DNA from: Mesorhizobium sp. AR02
GTDB lineage: Bacteria > Pseudomonadota > Alphaproteobacteria > Rhizobiales > Rhizobiaceae
Length of the DNA stretch: 64,000 bases
Assembly (NCBI RefSeq): GCF_024746835.1
Contig: NZ_CP080531.1
Span: forward strand, 4,236,001-4,300,000
Direction: 5' to 3'
Made by a program: the position numbers and the translations under genes. The notes below the pieces were generated by a model, which saw only the letters and a program-made list of their open reading frames with translations, had not been told where the DNA came from and ran no database searches. Below, piece after piece: positions 4,568 through 18,069 of the stretch. Each line of letters opens with the position of its first letter. The first letter of the stretch is position 1.

Positions 4568-4860
4568 CGTTCGATATCCGGATACGGTTGCCCCAACATT
4601 GTTCGATGCCAGAAATTTTACAACCTTGGATACGATTTTTATTGATTGTGACGGCAACCAGCCATATATCGCGCTTGCCCAAAGTCGCACGTGCCTGTGG
4701 GTGTCCGCCGATCCTCGAATGGTGAGGGAAATCGGTAAGGTAACTGGAGCCAACCCCTCCAGTCGGTCTAGCGGCCAACCGCCAGCCCGAGGACACCTTG
4801 AAGCAACGACGGTGCGGGCCTTTCTGGTTCTCTGCCGGTTGTCCAAAGACCGGGGTTACT
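4568..4860. other. Divergent intergenic region before amidase and decarboxylase
   Basis: About 290 bases without a convincing gene. The part nearest the amidase (4600-4650) is A/T-rich and should hold its promoter. A TTGGATACGA block at 4624-4633 resembles half of a GntR- or LysR-type operator, but I see no clean second half. The rest shows no codon bias on either strand. Confidence 0.4.
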
Positions 4861-4949
4861 GAAGAGGCACACCTTCATTGCCGGCAGTGCGGAACGGGGT
4901 TCTCCCAATCCAAGCCAAGGCAGACAAAGCGGACCGAAGCCGGGCAAGG

Positions 4950-5108
4950 CTGAGGTTCATCGCCGCGAGACGGCGTTTCATGGTTCCGGGGTCTCCACCG
5001 GCTGGTTCCATGGATTTCCGTCCCGCCTTTGTCCACCGCGTGTTCGCGAGGCCGATAGCCCGCGACCGCACCCTTGTGCGCGCCGAAAGGCGTGTTTGGA
5101 GATACCCG
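4950..5108 (+). promoter_or_regulatory. Structured leader of ornithine decarboxylase (speF-motif candidate)
   Basis: The leader holds a CGCCG/CGGCG hairpin (4961-4975). A longer element has CATGG (4979-4983) pairing with CCATG (5008-5012) and CCGG (4986-4989) pairing with CCGG (4998-5001). A GCGCC-GAAA-GGCG stem lies close to the ribosome binding site. A GGAG at 5098-5101 precedes the ATG by 7 bases. An ATG at 5010 opens a reading frame in phase with the enzyme. A conserved RNA called the speF motif is known upstream of decarboxylase genes in alphaproteobacteria; this region is the expected place for it, but I have not matched it to the covariance model. Confidence 0.45.
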
Positions 5109-6242
5109 ATGGCTACCCAGCGCATCCTCGACTTCCTCGCCACCCGACGTCCGTCCGGCCCTTGCCTCGTCGTCGACCTCGACGTCGTGCGCGACAATTT
5201 CCGCGCCTTCGAGAAGGCGCTGCCCGATTCCAAGATCTACTATGCGGTGAAAGCAAACCCGGCGCCGGAAATCCTGCGCCTCCTTGCTGCGATGGGCTCG
5301 TCCTTCGACACCGCTTCCGTTGCCGAAGTCGAGATGGCGATGGACGCGGGTGCGCCCGCGGACCGCATCTCCTTCGGCAACACCATCAAGAAGGAGCGTG
5401 ACATCGCACGCGCCTACCAGCTCGGCATCCGGCTGTTCGCCGTCGATTGCGTCGAGGAGGTCGAAAAGATCGCCCGCGTCGCTCCCGGCGCCCGCGTGTT
5501 CTGCCGTGTGCTGACCGATGGCGAAGGCGCCGAATGGCCGCTGTCGCGCAAGTTCGGCTGCGTGCCTGCCATGGCTGTCGACGTGCTGCGTCATGCCAAG
5601 GGCCTCGGCCTCGACGCCTACGGCGTGTCGTTCCATGTCGGCTCGCAGCAGACCGACCTGACCGCCTGGGACCGTGCGCTGGCCGACGCCAAGAAGGTGT
5701 TCGCGACGCTCGCCGAGGAAGGCATTGTCTTGAAGATGGTCAATATGGGTGGCGGTTTCCCGACGCGCTATTTGCGTGATGTGCCGGCGGCGCAGGCCTA
5801 TGGCCAGGCGATCTTCTCGGCGCTGCGCAAGCATTTCGGCAATGCCATTCCGGAAACCATCATCGAGCCGGGCCGTGGCATGGTCGGCAATGCCGGCGTC
5901 ATCAAGTCGGAAGTCGTGCTGATCTCGAAGAAGGCCGACAACGACAATGTGCGCTGGGTGTTCCTCGACATCGGCAAGTTCGGCGGTCTGGCCGAGACGA
6001 TGGACGAGGCGATCCGCTATCCCCTCGTCACCCGCCATGACGGCACCGAGACCGCGCCTTGCGTGCTTGCCGGCCCGACCTGCGATTCGGCTGATGTGAT
6101 GTACGAGAAGACGCCGTATCCGCTGCCTCTCTCGCTGACGATCGGCGACGAGGTGCTGATCGAAGGCACCGGCGCCTACACGACCACCTACTCGGCGGTC
6201 GCGTTCAACGGCTTCGAGCCTCTCCGATCCTACGTGATCTGA
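5109..6242 (+). CDS. Type III PLP-dependent ornithine/lysine decarboxylase
   Basis: A 377-residue alanine-racemase-fold decarboxylase expected to turn ornithine into putrescine, or lysine into cadaverine, in the cytoplasm. Lys48 in YYAVKANP is the PLP Schiff-base lysine. HVGSQ (176-180), GGGFP (214-218) and EPGRGMVGNAG (253-263) bind the cofactor phosphate, and Cys325 in CDSAD belongs to the active site made across the dimer. The start at 5109 is fixed by GGAG seven bases upstream; an in-frame extension to 4878 would translate the structured leader. Downstream is a GNAT gene, the same pairing seen around odc genes in Sinorhizobium. Ornithine and lysine use cannot be told apart here. Confidence 0.9.
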   Translation: MATQRILDFLATRRPSGPCLVVDLDVVRDNFRAFEKALPDSKIYYAVKANPAPEILRLLAAMGSSFDTASVAEVEMAMDAGAPADRISFGNTIKKERDIARAYQLGIRLFAVDCVEEVEKIARVAPGARVFCRVLTDGEGAEWPLSRKFGCVPAMAVDVLRHAKGLGLDAYGVSFHVGSQQTDLTAWDRALADAKKVFATLAEEGIVLKMVNMGGGFPTRYLRDVPAAQAYGQAIFSALRKHFGNAIPETIIEPGRGMVGNAGVIKSEVVLISKKADNDNVRWVFLDIGKFGGLAETMDEAIRYPLVTRHDGTETAPCVLAGPTCDSADVMYEKTPYPLPLSLTIGDEVLIEGTGAYTTTYSAVAFNGFEPLRSYVI

Positions 6243-10357: not shown

Positions 10358-10840
10358 TTGAGCGTAGCATTTGCCAAGGAGGAAAGCGCCGAGGCAGCAT
10401 CGGAAACCATCCTGCCGGCTCGCCCTATCTCCGATCGGATCAACCTGGTCACGGAGGCGGGCCTCAAGATGCTGCAGGATGAATTGGCTCGCGCTCAGCA
10501 GGCTCTCGAGATCGCCAGCGTGCTGGAAGATGTCAACGAGAGGCGACGGCAATCGGCGGTTCCGGTTCGGGATATGCGCTATTATGCCGAACGCGTCCGT
10601 ACGGCCCAGCTTATGTCGGTGCCGACGTCCAATGAAGTGATCGCCTTCGGTCACACCGTCACCTTCGAGCGTGATGATGGCCGCACGCAGACCTTCCGCA
10701 TCGTCGGTGAGGATGAGGCCAACCCCTCCCAAGCGTCCATATCGCATGGTTCACCGGTTGCCATCGCACTGATTGGCAAAAGCGTTGGCGAAATTGTCCA
10801 GCTGGGGCAGCGCGAACTCGAGATCCTGTCCATTTCTTAG
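10358..10840 (+). CDS. GreA/GreB-family transcription elongation factor
   Basis: A 160-residue protein with the two parts of Gre factors: an N-terminal coiled coil (LVTEAGLKMLQDELARAQQA and on, about 30-75) and a C-terminal FKBP-like domain (about 90-160) with the characteristic ending SPVAIALIGKSVGEIVQLGQ. Gre factors enter the RNA polymerase secondary channel and stimulate cleavage of backtracked RNA. The coil tip has acidic residues (EDVNERRR) where catalytic acids are expected, less canonical than in GreA, so this is probably an accessory paralogue. The start is a TTG with GGAG upstream. Its stop codon lies inside a 19-bp palindrome. Confidence 0.8.
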   Translation: MSVAFAKEESAEAASETILPARPISDRINLVTEAGLKMLQDELARAQQALEIASVLEDVNERRRQSAVPVRDMRYYAERVRTAQLMSVPTSNEVIAFGHTVTFERDDGRTQTFRIVGEDEANPSQASISHGSPVAIALIGKSVGEIVQLGQRELEILSIS

Positions 10841-10964
10841 AGCAGTTCACCGTTTCACGGAAACGGTGAACTGCTCTAACTCTTTGTTTTGACGCAATTC
10901 CCTAGGGAAAGCCTACGCGCTTTTCCCGGGAAAACCGTTTCACACTTTTCCTGGAATTGCTCTA
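10838..10964. repeat. Composite intergenic repeat with perfect 19-bp stem
   Basis: A perfect inverted repeat has arms at 10838-10856 and 10860-10878 (TAGAGCAGTTCACCGTTTC and its complement) around a three-base loop. It is followed by two further palindromes, TTCCCTAGGGAA (10899-10910) and TTTTCCCGGGAAAA (10921-10934), and ends in GAATTGCTCTA, the inverse of the opening bases. This is the form of a mosaic dispersed repeat in rhizobia. The first stem contains the TAG stop of the GreA-like gene and probably ends its message. Confidence 0.75.
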
Positions 10965-11090: not shown

Positions 11091-12260
11091 TCAAAAGCCC
11101 GGAATAGGCTGGGTCTTTCCACTCAATCGAGCGCCAAGTGTCAAAGCCGCTGGAAAATTCTTAATCACGGCGCGCATAGCCGTCGCGCCGCCAGGCCCAA
11201 GCGCTATTCGGGCAATCAAGGCTGCGGCACGCAAACGGGTCGAGAATTGCCGACGCCATTGCCTTTCGTAGCGATGTCCGGCCTCGTCGTGGCCCTCGTG
11301 GCCTTTACCCAACGCGGTCAGTTCTCTCGCAAGGAGCCAGCCGGATTGCAGCGCCATCGAAATCCCTTCCGCGATTACAGGATGTGACTCACCTGCGATG
11401 TTGCCGACGCGGAAGATACCCTGATCATAGCAGGTTCGAATACCGGGATGAATCGGTCCCGCGGCGAGCCATGGGCCATCCAATTCGGCACTGGCCAGCA
11501 CAGTTCCCACGCCTCGGCACGAGGCCAAGACATGGCGCCATAGTGCATCGGCGGCCGCACTATTTCCAGAACGTTGGCGCAGCCCGGATAGAACATCTCG
11601 GCGGATACAGCAGGAAATTGAAACCCGGCCACGGTCTGCCGTTACCATTCCACCATAGCCGCCCGGGAATACCAGCAGCGGCATCAGGTCGGGCGCCAGC
11701 GCGGCGCCGGTAAAATGCGCTTTGAACCCGAAAAGGTCGGAAGGTTGGCTCGTTCTTTCAATCTGGCTTGGGAGTTTCCCGGCTTCCCAGGATCCGTGCG
11801 CGGCAATTATAACAGGTGCGCTCAAAACCTTTTGTTGCTGTTCCGTCTCCACAGTCACAAACTGCACATCATCGCGCCGACGAATAGCGACAGCCTTGCA
11901 AGGCTGGAGAATTTCGACACCCGCGCGTTCGGCGGCCTGCAAAAGGACGAAATCCAGACGATCGCGGCCGAGAGCGCGGCCGAGACCCGTCTTGGCGCGC
12001 GGCATTCGCGCCTCGGCTGAGACATCGCCCGAAAAGAACCCGACGCGACGTATTTCGGGGCCGGCTTCCGCGCGCCAAGTCTCGCCGACGCCCAACTGGT
12101 CGAGCAAGGCAAGGCTGGTGCCTGACATGAATTCGCCGCAGACCTTTCGGCGAGGAAACGCGACCTTCTCCACCATTGCCACCGACCAACCATGCTGGGC
12201 CAGCGCAATGGCGGTAGAACTGCCGGCGGGGCCGGCACCGATGACTATTGCGTCGTGCAT
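11091..12260 (-). CDS. FAD-dependent oxidoreductase, geranylgeranyl-reductase type
   Basis: A 389-residue flavoprotein. The dinucleotide-binding motif GAGPAGSS (8-15) opens the FAD domain, FPRRKVCGEFMSG (about 35-47) is the signature seen in geranylgeranyl reductase and FixC-like enzymes, and GNIAGESHPVIAEGISMAL is the second FAD contact near 300. It should hydroxylate or reduce a lipid or aromatic substrate. It is read from the same message as the methyltransferase, whose stop overlaps its ATG (TAATG). Opposite lies the type III polyketide synthase; PKS, methyltransferase and flavoprotein trios build methylated phenolic lipids in other bacteria, so tailoring of the PKS product is the likely job. 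Confidence 0.82.
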   Translation of the reverse strand: MHDAIVIGAGPAGSSTAIALAQHGWSVAMVEKVAFPRRKVCGEFMSGTSLALLDQLGVGETWRAEAGPEIRRVGFFSGDVSAEARMPRAKTGLGRALGRDRLDFVLLQAAERAGVEILQPCKAVAIRRRDDVQFVTVETEQQQKVLSAPVIIAAHGSWEAGKLPSQIERTSQPSDLFGFKAHFTGAALAPDLMPLLVFPGGYGGMVTADRGRVSISCCIRRDVLSGLRQRSGNSAAADALWRHVLASCRGVGTVLASAELDGPWLAAGPIHPGIRTCYDQGIFRVGNIAGESHPVIAEGISMALQSGWLLARELTALGKGHEGHDEAGHRYERQWRRQFSTRLRAAALIARIALGPGGATAMRAVIKNFPAALTLGARLSGKTQPIPGF

Positions 12261-12964
12261 TATTTGGTGCCGGGCATGCTGGCGCCGACAAAACCTTGAG
12301 TGAAGAGGCCTTTGCGGGCCTCCATCACGGGCGTTCCACCTGACAGTTGCCACAATTGTGAAAGTTCCGTGCCGCGAAAACCGGCGCGGACACTTTGCGC
12401 CGCGTCGTTCAGCGTCACCGCGCAGGCGCCGATCAATCGCAGGAACCGGGTCGCGGCAAGTGGCACCTTGGCCCTGAGCGGCTCCGTCGCGACGAGCATC
12501 GGAGCCATCGTCATGATCCGGGCAAACAGCTCCAGCAGGCGCGTGTCGTCGAAGTGATGGAGGATAAGGTTGGCGCAAACTAGATCGAAGGGCCCGTCCC
12601 CTGTCCAATCGAATATATCGGCGGTTACGGGTCGCGCCTGCCAACCAAATTCGGCAAAAGAGTTGCACAAATCCTTGCCGATCAGGTCGATCCTGTCGAC
12701 CATGACGATCTCCACATCGGGCCAGCGCCGCGCCATCAGCCGCGCCACCGTCAGCATGAACTTTCCGTCACCGGCCCCTATTTCAAGGATGCGTAGCGGC
12801 GGCGTCGGCACGTTCGTTCGCAGGAGCGATGCCATGATCCTGGCCTGGAACATCAATGCATTGATGCGAACGAGATCACGACGGGATGCAATCGCACGAG
12901 GATCATCGGCCGGGAGACCGTCGAGGAGCTCTGGCTCCAGATGCCGGATGTTTATGTCGGTCAT
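12260..12964 (-). CDS. SAM-dependent methyltransferase
   Basis: A 234-residue class I methyltransferase. Motif I, ILEIGAGDGKF (59-69), binds the methionine part of SAM; the acidic residue after the second strand is in VMVDRIDL, and FDLVCANLILHHFDD is motif IV with the catalytic region. The start at 12964 gives a compact N-terminal helix; an extension to 12991 is possible. It overlaps the oxidoreductase start by one base and is divergent from the type III PKS, sharing a 276-base control region. An O- or C-methylation of the polyketide is inferred from context. Confidence 0.82.
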   Translation of the reverse strand: MTDINIRHLEPELLDGLPADDPRAIASRRDLVRINALMFQARIMASLLRTNVPTPPLRILEIGAGDGKFMLTVARLMARRWPDVEIVMVDRIDLIGKDLCNSFAEFGWQARPVTADIFDWTGDGPFDLVCANLILHHFDDTRLLELFARIMTMAPMLVATEPLRAKVPLAATRFLRLIGACAVTLNDAAQSVRAGFRGTELSQLWQLSGGTPVMEARKGLFTQGFVGASMPGTK

Positions 12965-13240
12965 GCGGAAATCTAGGGCTTCAGCCGGCAATCCGGCAAT
13001 TCGGTCGTACCTTCATGGCCGCGCGCTGTTCATGGCGGAACTCGCATGTGAACTCAATCCGGATGGCGAAGCCGAACGTCGGTCCCTTTCATACAGGATC
13101 GGAGGCTGGTATCACAGTTTGCTAATAAGAAATATCGGCGCTACGCAATAAAATGCTTTACGCCGGCGTTTACCTTAGGAACGCTTCCCCAATTCCTAGA
13201 CCTCTTATGAGACCCGATTGGGCTCATTGTCGGAGCAATT
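12965..13240. promoter_or_regulatory. Divergent promoter region of the polyketide island
   Basis: This region separates the methyltransferase-oxidoreductase operon from the type III PKS operon and must hold both promoters. An imperfect palindrome at 13207-13227, with ATGAG at one end and CTCAT at the other, lies just before the PKS ribosome binding site (GGAG at about 13231) and is a candidate operator. The central part (13110-13170) is A/T-rich. Confidence 0.45.
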
Positions 13241-14311
13241 TTGTCCCCTCAAGCGTATCTGAACCGCATTGCCACGTCAGTTCCAGAACACGACGTGCAT
13301 CAGTTCTACCTCCGCTATGGGGCTTTGCTGCTCGAAGACGATGCCCAGCGCCTTACGCTCTTCGAGCGAATGGTCGCTCTTGCCGGGATCGAACATCGCT
13401 ATTCCTGCTTTGCGCCTGCCGACGATCCGCGCGGTGGGGCAATCGACCGCGACGGCACCTCGGTCAGGGGCTCGTTCGCCAGCACCGCAATCCGTATGGA
13501 GATGTACGAAGCCGCCGCGCCGGAGCTCGCGCAACAGGCCGTCGACAAGCTTCTGGCCGACGACGACCGCTCGCTGATCACGCATTTGATCGTGACGAGC
13601 TGCACCGGCTTTTCGGCGCCCGGCATCGACCTCGAGCTGGTGCAGCGATGCGGCCTGCCGACGTCGGTCGAGCGCACCATCGTCGGCTTCATGGGGTGCT
13701 ATGCCGCCATCAACGCCTTGAAGCTGTCACGCCATATCGTGCGCTCCGACCCGAAAGCCCGCGTGCTGATCGTCAACATCGAATTGTGCACGCTGCATTT
13801 CAGGGAAGCCGCCGAGCTCGAGAAGCTGATCTCGTTCTGTCTATGGGGCGACGGTTGCGCGGCCTCGCTGGTAACGGCTGAGCCGCATGGCATTCTGCTC
13901 GAAAGCTTCCACGCCATCGTCGCGGCGGAGTGCAAGGAGCTGATGAGCTGGCGCATCCGCGACGACGGCTTTGACATGGTGCTGTCCGGCCAGGTTCCCG
14001 GCGCGGTCCGCGAGACGCTGCGCAACGAGCATCCGGCCATCCTCGGCGGCAGGCCCGCCAAGGAGATCGATTTGTGGGCGGTGCATCCCGGCGGCCGCTC
14101 CGTGCTCGACGCGGTCGAGCGGGCACTCAAACTGGAGCCGACCGCGCTCGCCGCATCGCGCGAAGTGCTCCGGCGATACGGCAACATGTCGTCGGCAACC
14201 GTGATGTTCGTGATGGCCGAAATGCTGAAGGAGCCAGCGGGCTTGCGCGGCTGCGGCATGGCGTTCGGGCCGGGGTTGACCACCGAGACCATGATGTTCC
14301 GGACTGCCTGA
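13241..14311 (+). CDS. Type III polyketide synthase (chalcone/stilbene synthase family)
   Basis: A 356-residue ketosynthase homodimer subunit that would condense malonyl-CoA units onto an acyl-CoA starter and cyclise the chain to a resorcinol, pyrone or similar ring. The catalytic triad is complete: Cys153 in GFMGCYAA, His282 in WAVHPGG and Asn315 in RYGNMSSAT. The C-terminal loop GMAFGPGLTTE closes the active site. The start is a TTG with GGAG five bases upstream. It heads an apparent operon with a sulfotransferase and lipid-transport genes and is divergent from tailoring enzymes. The starter and number of extensions cannot be read from sequence; neighbours suggest a fatty starter. Confidence 0.92.
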   Translation: MSPQAYLNRIATSVPEHDVHQFYLRYGALLLEDDAQRLTLFERMVALAGIEHRYSCFAPADDPRGGAIDRDGTSVRGSFASTAIRMEMYEAAAPELAQQAVDKLLADDDRSLITHLIVTSCTGFSAPGIDLELVQRCGLPTSVERTIVGFMGCYAAINALKLSRHIVRSDPKARVLIVNIELCTLHFREAAELEKLISFCLWGDGCAASLVTAEPHGILLESFHAIVAAECKELMSWRIRDDGFDMVLSGQVPGAVRETLRNEHPAILGGRPAKEIDLWAVHPGGRSVLDAVERALKLEPTALAASREVLRRYGNMSSATVMFVMAEMLKEPAGLRGCGMAFGPGLTTETMMFRTA

Positions 14312-14369
14312 GGAGGTCTGGTGGCCTGCCCGGTTTGAACATCTGAACCTATGGATCATAAGTTCCTTG

Positions 14370-15590
14370 ATGATGCCATCGCACAATGTCCAACATCGCA
14401 TCCGAGCTTTCGCAGCCCGTTGGCTGGTGCCTTATTTGCCGTATCCGCACTTCATGTTCGTGGCACCTCTTGACGCCGTGCTGAGGATCCTGTGGCACGC
14501 GGAAGGCCGGATTCCTCCCGCCTATTGGCCGCGCCTGGTTCTCCTGCTCCTGCTTTCCGGGATCAGCACGGTCGCCTCCCTGCCGGAGCGCATGATCCTT
14601 TGGCTATGGCTGCGGCTGCGACCTCCCCGGATGGAGCGGGATAACGCCCCTGTGTTCGTCCTCGGCTACTTCCGATCCGGGACGACGTTTTTGCAGAACC
14701 TGCTGGCAGCCGATCCGAGCCTGAGATCGCCGAGCTTGCCGCAGGTCCTGGCGCCCCAGACATTCGTCCTCGGCTGGGTTCTGCTCCGCTACCTTTTCGT
14801 ACCGTTGCTGCCGTTGACGCGCCTCAACGCAGTGGTGCCGGTAGGCGCCAGATTGCCAGCGGAGGACGATTTCGCGTTGAACAATATGGGTGGGATGTCT
14901 GTCCTCGCAGGACGCGCCATGTTTCCCCGCCGGCAGGCCTTCTTCAATCGATTTCACGATCTCGACGCGCTTTCGGTGGACGAGTTTAGCCGCTGGCGCT
15001 CACATCAGTTCGCTTTCGTCCAGAAGCTTGCTCTCGTTGCGGGCGGGCGGCGACTTCTGCTCAAGTCGCCGAGCCATACGGCGCGCGTCCGCTACCTCCT
15101 GGAGCTGTTTCCGGGCGCCAAGTTTGTCCACATCTCCCGTTCACCGGAAGTCGTGTTTCGGTCCAACCTCCTTCTGGCGCGCGAATTGCAACGTGCATTC
15201 GCCCTGCAGCCGCCACTGCCCGAGGACGAGCAGGAGGAGATCATCACCTGCGAATATCTCGCGACAGAAATGCACTATCTGGCAGATAGAGCTCAGATTC
15301 CCGCCGCCGACCTCGCAGAAGTGCGGCTGCAGGATCTGATCGCCGACCCCGTGGGCGAGATGAAGCGGATCTACCGCGAACTGGGCCTGCCATTTTCCCG
15401 CAGCTGCGAGGAGCGGATGCTGCAGGTCGCTGCGACGTTCGTCAAACAGGTGCCCAACCGCCATCCCGACCTGACGGAAAGGCAGAAAGCGCGGGTAGCT
15501 CGCCTCGAACCGCTGGCTGCGACTTTCGGGCATACGCCTGCACAGGCTTCTGAGAGGCTCGATGTTGACAGCCAACAGCGCATCGGATGA
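14370..15590 (+). CDS. Membrane-associated sulfotransferase
   Basis: A 406-residue sulfotransferase (Sulfotransfer_3-like), expected to move a sulfuryl group from PAPS to an acceptor hydroxyl. The 5'-phosphosulfate loop is LGYFRSGTTFLQNLL (98-112), LKSPSHTAR (231-239) is the second conserved strand, and KFVHISRSPEVVFRS (251-265) contacts the 3'-phosphate. An N-terminal hydrophobic segment (about 56-72) suggests membrane attachment, which fits a lipid acceptor. It follows the PKS by 58 bases on the same strand. ATG codons at 14370 and 14373 are both possible. Sulfation of the polyketide product is inference from the operon. Confidence 0.82.
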   Translation: MMPSHNVQHRIRAFAARWLVPYLPYPHFMFVAPLDAVLRILWHAEGRIPPAYWPRLVLLLLLSGISTVASLPERMILWLWLRLRPPRMERDNAPVFVLGYFRSGTTFLQNLLAADPSLRSPSLPQVLAPQTFVLGWVLLRYLFVPLLPLTRLNAVVPVGARLPAEDDFALNNMGGMSVLAGRAMFPRRQAFFNRFHDLDALSVDEFSRWRSHQFAFVQKLALVAGGRRLLLKSPSHTARVRYLLELFPGAKFVHISRSPEVVFRSNLLLARELQRAFALQPPLPEDEQEEIITCEYLATEMHYLADRAQIPAADLAEVRLQDLIADPVGEMKRIYRELGLPFSRSCEERMLQVAATFVKQVPNRHPDLTERQKARVARLEPLAATFGHTPAQASERLDVDSQQRIG

Positions 15591-15599
15591 CATAGGATC

Positions 15600-16214
15600 A
15601 TGACAGCAGCCCTATGGTCGCACGCAAGCTGGGCAGCGTTGGCCCGGCTGTTGCTCGTCTCCGTGCTACTCGCGATCTGCGCCCCATCGCTTTCGGCAGC
15701 TGCCGATGAGCAGAGTGAGGCGGTCAAGTTGGTTGAGACTGTGCGCCAGGCGGCGATTGTGCTTGGGCACGGTGGATCCGCCGAGGGGCAGCTCCGCTCG
15801 ATCTCCGCGGCGTTCGACGGTAGGGGGATCGCGCAAGCCGTGCTCGGGACGTATTGGCGCCGTGCGAGTGCGGAAGACCGCGCCTCGGTGGTCGATGCGC
15901 TTCTTTATGCCATTGCACACAGGCTGGCCGACAAGCTGGAGCGGACGCAGGACAAGACTTTCACAGTGCTCGGCACAAAGGCTCTGGCTAACGGCGACAT
16001 CCTGGTGCGCAGCGAATTCCGCCGGCCGCTCCACGGCCCAACGTCCGTGGACTGGCGTGTCCGCCACTGCCGCGGACAACTCTGCATCGGCGATGTCTTT
16101 GTCGACGGCGGCTCCGTGACCGTGCAGCAGCGGGACCGCATTGCCCAGTTGCTCGCCGGCAACGGCGGCTCGATCCCAGCACTTGTCGCCGATCTCAGGA
16201 AAGGCCGGGTATGA
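15600..16214 (+). CDS. MlaC-like periplasmic lipid-binding protein
   Basis: A 204-residue secreted protein with a signal peptide (about 1-34). The mature part follows the MlaC/Ttg2D pattern: helices, then paired strands (FTVLGTKALANGDILVRSEF, then TSVDWRVRH and GDVFVDGGSVTV), then a C-terminal helix RDRIAQLLAG ending in VADLRKG. MlaC proteins carry phospholipid across the periplasm between membrane complexes. Two cysteines (CRGQLC) are unusual for MlaC and may form a disulfide. The gene sits 9 bases after the sulfotransferase and just before an ABC transporter, so here it likely ferries the island's lipid product. The family call rests on pattern, not a search. Confidence 0.7.
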   Translation: MTAALWSHASWAALARLLLVSVLLAICAPSLSAAADEQSEAVKLVETVRQAAIVLGHGGSAEGQLRSISAAFDGRGIAQAVLGTYWRRASAEDRASVVDALLYAIAHRLADKLERTQDKTFTVLGTKALANGDILVRSEFRRPLHGPTSVDWRVRHCRGQLCIGDVFVDGGSVTVQQRDRIAQLLAGNGGSIPALVADLRKGRV

Positions 16215-16230
16215 CTCCCCGCTCGTGCTC

Positions 16231-16944
16231 ATGTCCCTCCTCGTCGAATTGAGCAATGTCGGCCGCGACTTTGACGGCGGCCGCATTGTCGCCGTTGACG
16301 ATGTGTCGCTTGCGATCGAGGATGACGAGACCGTCGCCATTGTCGGCCGGAGCGGAAGCGGCAAGTCGACGATCCTGAACCTGGTCTGTGGGCTTGACCG
16401 GCCGACGCGCGGCGAAGTTCGGTTCGAAGGACGGGCCATCAACGGAAGGGCTGCATGGGCAGCCGTCCGGGCCAGCAAGATCGGCATCGTTTTCCAGAAC
16501 TTCTTCCTGCTCCAGTCGTTGTCGGCGCGCGAGAACATCGAAGTGGCTTTGTTGGGAAACCTCGGCGGAGCGCGGCAGCGTCGCGTTCGCGCGCTCGAAC
16601 TTCTGGCACATTTCGGTCTTGCCGAGCGCGCCACGCTCCGGCCGGCCGAGCTTTCGGGCGGCGAACGCCAGCGGCTTGCAATTGCACGAGCGCTTGCAAA
16701 CCGCCCGAAGCTTCTCGTTGCGGACGAGCCGACAGGAAGCCTCGACGTTCAGACGAGCCAATCCGTGATGAGCATCATTGGTAACGTGCATCGTGAGTTC
16801 GGCACTGCGGTGGTCGTCGTGACCCATGACGAGGATGTGGCCGCACTGTGCGGTCGGCGCGTCGAGATCTCCGACGGCCGCATCCGTTCGGACAGCCGAA
16901 TGGGGGCAATGTCGACGCCCGCGCCGATGTCGCGGATCCGCTGA
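16231..16944 (+). CDS. ABC transporter ATPase, MacB/LolD type
   Basis: A 237-residue nucleotide-binding subunit. Walker A is GRSGSGKST (39-47), the Q-loop is IVFQNFFLLQ (86-95), the signature LSGGERQR (141-148), Walker B LLVADEP (161-167) and the switch histidine lies in VVVTHDEDVA. The sequence groups with LolD/MacB/FtsE-like ATPases that drive FtsX-type permeases rather than importers. It starts 16 bases after the MlaC-like gene and ends 3 bases before the permease, so the three act together. Such machines extract or push hydrophobic substrates at the inner membrane using cytoplasmic ATP. Confidence 0.88.
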   Translation: MSLLVELSNVGRDFDGGRIVAVDDVSLAIEDDETVAIVGRSGSGKSTILNLVCGLDRPTRGEVRFEGRAINGRAAWAAVRASKIGIVFQNFFLLQSLSARENIEVALLGNLGGARQRRVRALELLAHFGLAERATLRPAELSGGERQRLAIARALANRPKLLVADEPTGSLDVQTSQSVMSIIGNVHREFGTAVVVVTHDEDVAALCGRRVEISDGRIRSDSRMGAMSTPAPMSRIR

Positions 16945-16947
16945 CCC

Positions 16948-18069
16948 ATGACAGAGCTGACCCTTCCCTTGCGCGGTCTGATTGCGCGCCCGCTTCGCAC
17001 GCTCCTCACGGTTCTCGGCATCGCCTTGGCGGTCGCGGGCTTTGTGGCGCTTACCGGCCTGACTGCCGGCGTCCAGCGCTCGTTCGCATCGGGAATCGAT
17101 GAGAACGGCGCGGACCTGGTGGTGAGCCAGCGCGGCGCGTTCAACCTGGTGAGCAGCACCGTGCCTAGGTCGCTGGGCTCCGGGCTTACCGCGGTGCCAA
17201 ACGTCGAGGCCGTGTCGGGCGTTCTCCTGAACATCACCACCGCCGACGACGATGCGAATATTGTCATGGCGGGCTGGCCCGCCGGCAGCTTCCTGTGGAA
17301 GGATATGCACCTCCTGGCGGGGCGAATCCCTGCACCGGGGGATCAGTGGCCCGTGATCCTAGGCGAGTCGATCGCCACCGCATTGGACAAGCGGGTCGGT
17401 GATACCATCGAACTCCAGTTCCAGCCCTACCAGATTGTCGGCATCGCGTCGTTCTCGTCAGTGCTGAACCAAAACAGCGCGATCGTTCCGCTCGAAGGGC
17501 TGCAGCAACTCCTGTCGCGGGAGGACGTGTTTACCTTGTACGAGGTGAGGTTGAAGCGCCCGCTCGAGAGCAACGACATCGCCGTTGCACGAACCCGGCT
17601 CATCGCGGCCGCACCGGGATTCGCGGTGGGCGACACCGAGCAGTTTGCCAGCAGCATCCGCATCTTCGATCTGCTTCAGGCGATTGCCCGGACAATTTCA
17701 CTGGTTGTCATGGCGATGGCCTCTGTCGCCGTTGCCAATACACTGCTGATGGCGGTGAACGAACGGACGTTCGAGATTGGGGTTCTCGCAGCGCTTGGCT
17801 GGTCTCCGAGGCGGATCCTTCGGCTCATTCTTATCGAAGGCGTGATCATGAGCGCTGCCGGCGGGGTAATCGGGATCATTCTCGGCGCCCTTGCCATGGA
17901 AATGGCGGCGAAGACAAAGTTCGCGGCGGGTCTGATCGTGCCTTACCTGTCGGGCTGGTCGATCGCGCAGGCGCTGATCTTCGTCTTCATTGCAGGGCCC
18001 CTCGGCGCGCTCTACCCGGCCTGGCGCGCCACGCGCCTTCTCCCCGCTGACGCGCTCCGCAGGATCTGA
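16948..18069 (+). CDS. FtsX/MacB-family ABC permease
   Basis: A 373-residue permease with the topology of LolC/MacB: one membrane helix at residues 16-40, a large periplasmic domain (about 45-240, with the MacB-core pattern), then three C-terminal helices (about 245-275, 295-320 and 340-362). FtsX-type permeases transmit force to periplasmic partners instead of opening a plain channel. With the ATPase gene 3 bases upstream and the MlaC-like carrier before that, the set could lift a lipid from the inner membrane and hand it to the carrier. It is the last gene of the polyketide operon. The substrate is inferred. Confidence 0.87.
   Translation: MTELTLPLRGLIARPLRTLLTVLGIALAVAGFVALTGLTAGVQRSFASGIDENGADLVVSQRGAFNLVSSTVPRSLGSGLTAVPNVEAVSGVLLNITTADDDANIVMAGWPAGSFLWKDMHLLAGRIPAPGDQWPVILGESIATALDKRVGDTIELQFQPYQIVGIASFSSVLNQNSAIVPLEGLQQLLSREDVFTLYEVRLKRPLESNDIAVARTRLIAAAPGFAVGDTEQFASSIRIFDLLQAIARTISLVVMAMASVAVANTLLMAVNERTFEIGVLAALGWSPRRILRLILIEGVIMSAAGGVIGIILGALAMEMAAKTKFAAGLIVPYLSGWSIAQALIFVFIAGPLGALYPAWRATRLLPADALRRI

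Follow-up and report, generated by a model that had tools for sequence, protein, structure and literature searches.

A stretch of 64,000 nucleotides from the genome of Mesorhizobium sp. AR02 (8.9 Mb, 4 contigs), here called the window, harbors at positions 11091-18069 a block of seven intact open genes in which a type III polyketide synthase (PKS) is combined with modifying enzymes and proteins of lipid-transport families. Inspection of the open reading frames (ORFs) and profile searches with Pfam and NCBIfam models gave the same genes and order as an earlier interpretation made from the letters of this DNA alone (the sequence-only reading), including a divergent methyltransferase-oxidoreductase pair and downstream genes running in one direction with small gaps. 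The minus strand carries a flavin adenine dinucleotide (FAD)-dependent oxidoreductase of the FAD_binding_3/geranylgeranyl-reductase-like superfamily (11091-12260, Pfam 4.3e-17), which is the last gene of the divergent pair, and a class I S-adenosylmethionine methyltransferase (12260-12964; PF13649 2.4e-7, PRK06202 model under cut-off); the methyltransferase stop and the FAD gene start overlap by one base (TAATG). The divergent intergenic region (12965-13240) separates this pair from the type III PKS on the plus strand (13241-14311; PF00195 2.8e-24, PF02797 4.3e-24), which is followed on that strand by a sulfotransferase of the Sulfotransfer_3 family (14373-15590; PF13469 8.2e-31), an MlaC-family periplasmic lipid carrier with an N-terminal hydrophobic signal-like segment (15600-16214), a LolD/MacB-type ATP-binding cassette (ABC) ATPase (16231-16944; PF00005 1.2e-35) and a MacB_PCD/FtsX permease with the type VII ABC fold (16948-18069). 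The spacers between the last four genes are 9, 16 and 3 bases.

Comparison with other Mesorhizobium genomes revealed that this gene set is conserved. A PKS match at E 1e-3 is found in 80 of 146 Mesorhizobium species genomes, some of these matches being fragments or distant homologues, and a PKS of the window type (92-100% identity) in 12. At E 1e-20 the sulfotransferase and the permease each occur in 12 genomes, which are the same 12, and neither was found in a genome without the window-type PKS (0/146). In the permease searches the number of first-look candidates scored per genome was limited (to 13 in the genus search and 6 in a wider search), and weak matches may be missed. The 12 genomes, that of the window included, are called carriers below; all have the seven genes in the identical order. 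The sequence-only reading had made its case depend on such co-occurrence, with absence elsewhere counting against it, and all seven genes are indeed present in each of the 12 carriers. The mean dN/dS between the window and the other carriers is 0.11-0.23 over the seven genes, and the matched stretches are free of stop codons in all 12. The low dN/dS and the recurrence of the set confirm that it is more than a chance assembly. The flanks, compared over ca. 4.4-6 kb outside the FAD and permease genes, fall into eight contexts: the window groups with L160, and L153 has only the left side in common with them; L154 groups with L157, and L155 with L158 and L159; the flanks of L150, L151, L152 and L156 have at most short stretches in common. 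One gene order within differing flanks indicates that the block behaves as a unit and stays intact in changing surroundings.

The island is composed of two separable modules: module A, with the PKS, methyltransferase and FAD enzyme, and module B, with the sulfotransferase, MlaC protein, ATPase and permease. The single seven-gene island of the sequence-only reading thus stands as one conserved set and needs revision in that its halves also occur apart, the trio without module B being the commoner state among PKS loci. The best 80 of 104 confirmed PKS loci were named; 5 are carriers, and the remaining 75 contain the trio or the PKS alone. Within the flanks examined, these 75 loci gave no match at 1e-8 to the sulfotransferase, the MlaC protein or the permease. 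The methyltransferase adjoins the PKS in 72 of the 75 and an at least partial FAD gene in 69; three of the six loci without the FAD gene (L079, L091 and L149) reach the end of their contig, and three loci of Rhodobacteraceae type show a FAD match of just 28-29%. All 69 non-carrier loci with the three genes, from Mesorhizobium, Devosia, Aureimonas, Afifella and Rhodobacteraceae, have the trio in one direction; in all 12 carriers the methyltransferase-FAD pair diverges from the PKS. Besides generic ABC ATPases (9 loci) and shadow frames, no fourth gene lies by the trio in more than 3 of 20 representative non-carrier loci. Pairwise distances over 77 loci correlate at 0.96 for PKS and methyltransferase and at 0.86 for PKS and FAD enzyme. 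The carriers form one clade in the PKS, methyltransferase and FAD trees (FastTree, local support, midpoint root), from which the seven-gene form most simply arose once, with inversion of the methyltransferase-FAD pair. In Mesorhizobium soli a related PKS (60%) is present twice (L145 and L146, the same as L062 and L063), and neither a methyltransferase nor a FAD gene was found alongside. In the open-licence literature, among the titles and abstract openings listed, we found no functional report on this type III PKS operon, which is widespread in Hyphomicrobiales.

Module B likewise occurs on its own. Genome G546, from another family of the same order, has its four genes in the same order (33, 45, 61 and 62% identity), and the sole PF00195 match in this genome scores 24.8 bits, under the cut-off of 27. 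The other four of five genomes outside Mesorhizobium with the MlaC-ATPase-permease triad (G866, G868, G500 and G477) do have a PF00195 match over the cut-off, on a different contig from the triad, a frequency for which there is no background rate. In a protein collection, PKS, sulfotransferase and permease homologues apparently lie on one contig of 11,028 bases, and sulfotransferase and permease homologues of ca. 70% identity apparently lie together on contigs of 23,518 and 7,485 bases; both assignments are indirect and follow from equal contig sizes.

The PKS is a complete type III enzyme, as the sequence-only reading had it. Its catalytic residues Cys153, His282 and Asn315 align with those of PKS18 (1ted), which is among its closest solved relatives, and of the rice enzyme, and none of the 77 aligned sequences, which include the 12 carriers, departs from them. 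The residues at the positions of Thr144, Ala148 and Cys205 of PKS18 are kept in 77, 74 and 74 of these sequences. Thr144 and Ala148 presumably have a role in the long-chain tunnel of PKS18. Conservation of these PKS18-like tunnel residues suggests that the island PKS may accommodate a long-chain starter. Cys205 is discussed in the available part of PMC6274091, which also describes Trp281 of ArsB as the switch between resorcinol and pyrone formation. Trp237 of the island PKS is invariant as well (77/77); ArsB was not part of the alignment and we do not claim that the two residues are equivalent. The FAD enzyme has a GAGPAG motif and scores 96.4 bits with TIGR02032, below the cut-off of 158.8.

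The PKS start codon is TTG, preceded by a Shine-Dalgarno sequence (GGAG), and both are kept in the alignment of the 12 carriers. The divergent region upstream contains further blocks conserved over the carriers, in which no regulatory motif was identified; a simple scan gave no sigma-70-like site in 12965-13240, and scans for promoters and terminators performed no better than on shuffled sequences.

The ORF list starts the sulfotransferase at TTG 14367; comparison with other carriers, whose PKS stop overlaps the ATG corresponding to 14373, makes this ATG the best start. This overlap (TGATG), in the sulfotransferase frame, is found in 10 of the 12 carriers, and a spacer of ca. 60 bases takes its place in the window and L150. 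The overlap suggests a single operon. In the numbering of the 407-residue protein, motifs resembling the site for 3'-phosphoadenosine-5'-phosphosulfate (PAPS) are present as RSGT (103) and RSPE (258); two hydrophobic segments are marginal. Among the matches listed, 5 of 120 homologues bear the name omega-hydroxy-beta-dihydromenaquinone-9 sulfotransferase. Many homologues (P0055, P0057-P0063 and most of P0094-P0120) have about 490-550 residues and are ca. 100-140 residues longer than the window protein, which suggests an extra domain. The enzyme is rare outside the carriers: among 289 genomes of the class the window alone has it at 1e-40, and among 199 genomes of the order the window and 14 others were found at 1e-30, the 14 at 30-38% identity. 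Beside 9 of these 14 (L203-L211, ca. 1.5 kb per side) tblastn found no module B partners. A plasmid origin was considered and rejected: in a tblastn search of 72,556 plasmid records 18 matched the sulfotransferase, all below 60% identity and none covering 80%.

The assignment of the last three genes to lipid-handling fold families also holds. The carrier belongs to the MlaC family by profile match and has the MlaC fold by structure prediction. The permease is of the FtsX type with a periplasmic core domain, the ATPase is of the LolD type and possesses Walker A and LSGGE motifs, and by sequence and predicted fold the pair has the features of a type VII ABC system. The scores of the two proteins with the NCBIfam LolD and LolC/E models are far under the cut-offs (LolD 202 bits, cut-off 360), and the solved proteins that best match the permease sequence are MacB. 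In such systems the periplasmic partner defines the job: LolCDE with LolA extracts lipoproteins, and YbbAP with TesA is proposed to extract hydrophobic compounds (PMC12646458, available part). An MlaC protein as the partner is the least expected part of the island, and it recurs. In all 6 loci found outside Mesorhizobium at E 1e-50 or better, the ATPase-permease pair is immediately preceded by an MlaC gene, one of these MlaC proteins being below the Pfam cut-off. Within Mesorhizobium the MlaC family was found in 6 of 6 sampled carriers and in none of 55 other genomes (61 in total). At L220 (7787-15864), the triad stops ca. 1.3 kb before genes for an AMP-ligase/carrier/reductase protein and a fatty-acid desaturase, a hint of a different lipid cargo there.

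Judged from its genes, the conserved block found in some Mesorhizobium of soil and nodules is likely to produce a phenolic lipid tagged with sulfate and to move it off the inner membrane. The specific model of a biosynthesis-and-export island, in which export of a sulfated, methylated phenolic lipid begins with its extraction from the inner membrane and proceeds over the periplasm, we regard as an even call. According to this model, the PKS would build a phenolic lipid of the alkylresorcinol or alkylpyrone type from a fatty acyl starter and malonyl units, its ring would be methylated and oxidized by the methyltransferase and the flavoenzyme, and the sulfotransferase, probably membrane-associated, would transfer sulfate from PAPS to a ring hydroxyl, giving an anionic lipid that remains in the inner membrane. 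The type VII ABC transporter could then lift the lipid from this membrane and pass it to the MlaC-type protein, which may shuttle it through the periplasm, probably to the outer membrane; the outward direction is suggested by the type of ABC system. A broader proposal, which we hold somewhat more tentatively, is that the MlaC-type VII ABC triad represents a distinct class of lipid exporter, in which a Lol/MacB-like extractor loads an MlaC-fold shuttle, which serves varied lipid gene sets and which would have been recruited once in Mesorhizobium for a sulfated methylated phenolic lipid.

Several observations weigh against the export model. The module B genes of G546, where no PF00195 match exceeds the cut-off, imply that the cargo need not be a PKS product, and the 75 of 80 PKS loci without module B imply that sulfation and export are not needed for the basic role of the trio. 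The window itself lacks the PKS-sulfotransferase overlap, and in L150 the overlap frame ends after 5 codons. None of the seven genes encodes a PAPS-synthesis enzyme, an MCE protein, an outer-membrane acceptor or a TolC-like exit (PAPS and MCE genes were not searched elsewhere in the genome). The NCBIfam models listed for the FAD enzyme are all under their cut-offs and do not decide between hydroxylation and reduction, and if the methyltransferase were to cap both ring hydroxyls, as HidA does (PMC10896814, available part), a third hydroxyl would be needed for the sulfotransferase. At the weaker permease matches L199-L202 no MlaC gene was found by tblastn, although the same test also missed those of L197 and L198. 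Finally, in the portions of the literature at hand FtsEX is a type VII ABC system that regulates rather than transports, and the Mla system of E. coli is described as retrograde.

Some of these points are shared by the explanation that the modules are independent neighbors: the trio lipid would be unsulfated and stay in the membrane, module B would sulfate and move another lipid such as a hopanoid, an ornithine lipid or a glycolipid, and the two would have only a promoter in common. The separate occurrence of module B in G546 and of the trio in the non-carrier loci favors it, as does the L220 triad near an AMP-ligase/reductase protein and a desaturase. We nevertheless consider it unlikely, if far from negligible, in view of the strict co-inheritance in 12 of 12 carriers despite eight flank contexts, the overlap between PKS stop and sulfotransferase start in 10 of them, the lack of any sulfotransferase or permease without the window-type PKS among the 146 genomes and the type III PKS matches, on other contigs, in four of the five outside triad genomes. 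Inward transport or lipid maintenance, in which MlaC would bring phospholipids or the phenolic lipid back to the inner membrane from the outer one, as is thought for E. coli Mla, appears improbable. The ABC partner is of type VII and not an MCE-type MlaE/MlaD system, and the members described in the available part of PMC12646458 extract molecules from the inner membrane or drive partners in the periplasm. The seven genes also include neither MlaA nor an MCE gene. A small, soluble and secreted product, not a membrane lipid, with the transporter acting as a MacB-type efflux pump, is suggested by the MacB matches of the permease and by the ability of type III PKSs to take small starters, but is very improbable for an island with separate ATPase and permease genes, no MacA adaptor or TolC-like gene, a carrier of a lipid-binding family and a PKS with PKS18-like tunnel residues.

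Overall, the sequence-only reading is partly supported. If the export model is true, the island would offer a natural case of an MlaC-type carrier that must be loaded by an ABC extractor, and MlaC would count among the partners by which the functions of type VII ABC systems are defined. Since the sampled Mesorhizobium genomes showed no other MlaC, it would then be possible to test cleanly which way MlaC proteins can carry lipids. The model would also connect the type III PKS operon, widespread in Hyphomicrobiales, with the envelope lipids of plant-associated bacteria.

The island sits in a flagellar cluster, with rod-binding-protein and greB-like genes to the left and fliR- and flhA-family genes to the right. 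This cluster (9455-47561) is broken twice, by the island and by ca. 16 kb past the flhA-family gene which contain a CLC channel, a solute-binding protein and ABC ATPase, a DAO oxidoreductase and an asparagine-synthase-like gene; flagellin and flgK genes follow. The greB-like gene (10358-10840, PF01272) lies next to the FAD gene in five of the 12 carriers (the window, L153, L154, L156 and L157) despite differing outer flanks, and may therefore travel with the island. It is followed by a terminator-like stem of 20 pairs (10837-10879). Further to the left (4677-6242), a gene of the ornithine/arginine decarboxylase family (4878-6242) has a speF leader (93 bits) at its start, and an ar45 small RNA (159 bits) immediately precedes this leader.

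Each half of the island has known counterparts. For module A, we take srsABC of Streptomyces to be a counterpart trio beyond SrsA. SrsA itself is named in PMC10896814, the available part of which describes the methyltransferase-oxidoreductase-type III PKS operon type as producing alkylresorcinols in planctomycetes and hierridin B in cyanobacteria. The claim of the sequence-only reading that such trios form a methylated-phenolic-lipid unit is thus sound, the unit being real and having characterized counterparts. Similar to the hidABC and planctomycete operons, the island combines the same three enzyme types, with a Cys-His-Asn PKS and an adjacent, co-inherited methyltransferase and FAD enzyme, and long-chain alkylresorcinol chemistry would be expected. 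Unlike these operons, it has another gene order, is divergent in the 12 carriers rather than a single co-directional operon, and includes sulfotransferase and transport genes; the HidABC and SrsABC sequences were not compared directly.

The combination of a type III PKS with a sulfotransferase is also precedented, in the adp, cpz and tot clusters and in Rv1371-1373, so that the novelty suggested by the sequence-only reading narrows to the MlaC-type VII ABC pair. For neither this pair nor the seven-gene set was a description found among the listed titles and abstract openings of the open-licence literature; the same holds for the combination of the two halves, above all the repeated pairing. 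In the adp cluster of Streptomyces davaonensis (adpPKS, adpST and PAPS genes; PMC12135136, available part), which makes sulfated adipostatins, the clustered sulfotransferase is proven to sulfate a type III PKS alkylresorcinol. PKS and sulfotransferase belong to one operon in adp and, by sequence, in the island, where they lie on the same strand with an overlap in 10 of 12 carriers and a spacer of ca. 60 bases in two. As far as the available text goes, adp has three PAPS genes and no methyltransferase, FAD enzyme or transporter; the seven island genes include no dedicated PAPS genes. The mycobacterial rv1371/pks18/rv1373 operon, reported to change lipid composition (PMC13141999, available part), likewise has a type III PKS adjoining a lipid sulfotransferase, with a desaturase-like gene in place of the methyltransferase and FAD enzyme; the available text mentions no carrier or ABC transporter.

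Module B shares a periplasmic lipid carrier of the MlaC family and fold with the Mla pathway (MlaA-MlaC-MlaFEDB). Instead of an MlaE/MlaD (MCE) partner the locus has PF00005 and MacB_PCD/FtsX proteins, and neither an MCE protein nor MlaA is encoded by the seven genes (MCE was not searched elsewhere). The fold of the ATPase and FtsX-type permease is common to LolCDE-LolA, MacAB-TolC, FtsEX-EnvC, YbbAP-TesA, BceAB and HrtBA. In contrast to MacAB-TolC, ATPase and permease are not fused and no MacA adaptor is found among the seven genes, and since there is one permease gene, the permease presumably forms a homodimer. The periplasmic partner sets the island apart: it is an MlaC-family carrier and not LolA as in the Lol system, where other type VII ABC systems use LolA, MacA, EnvC or TesA.

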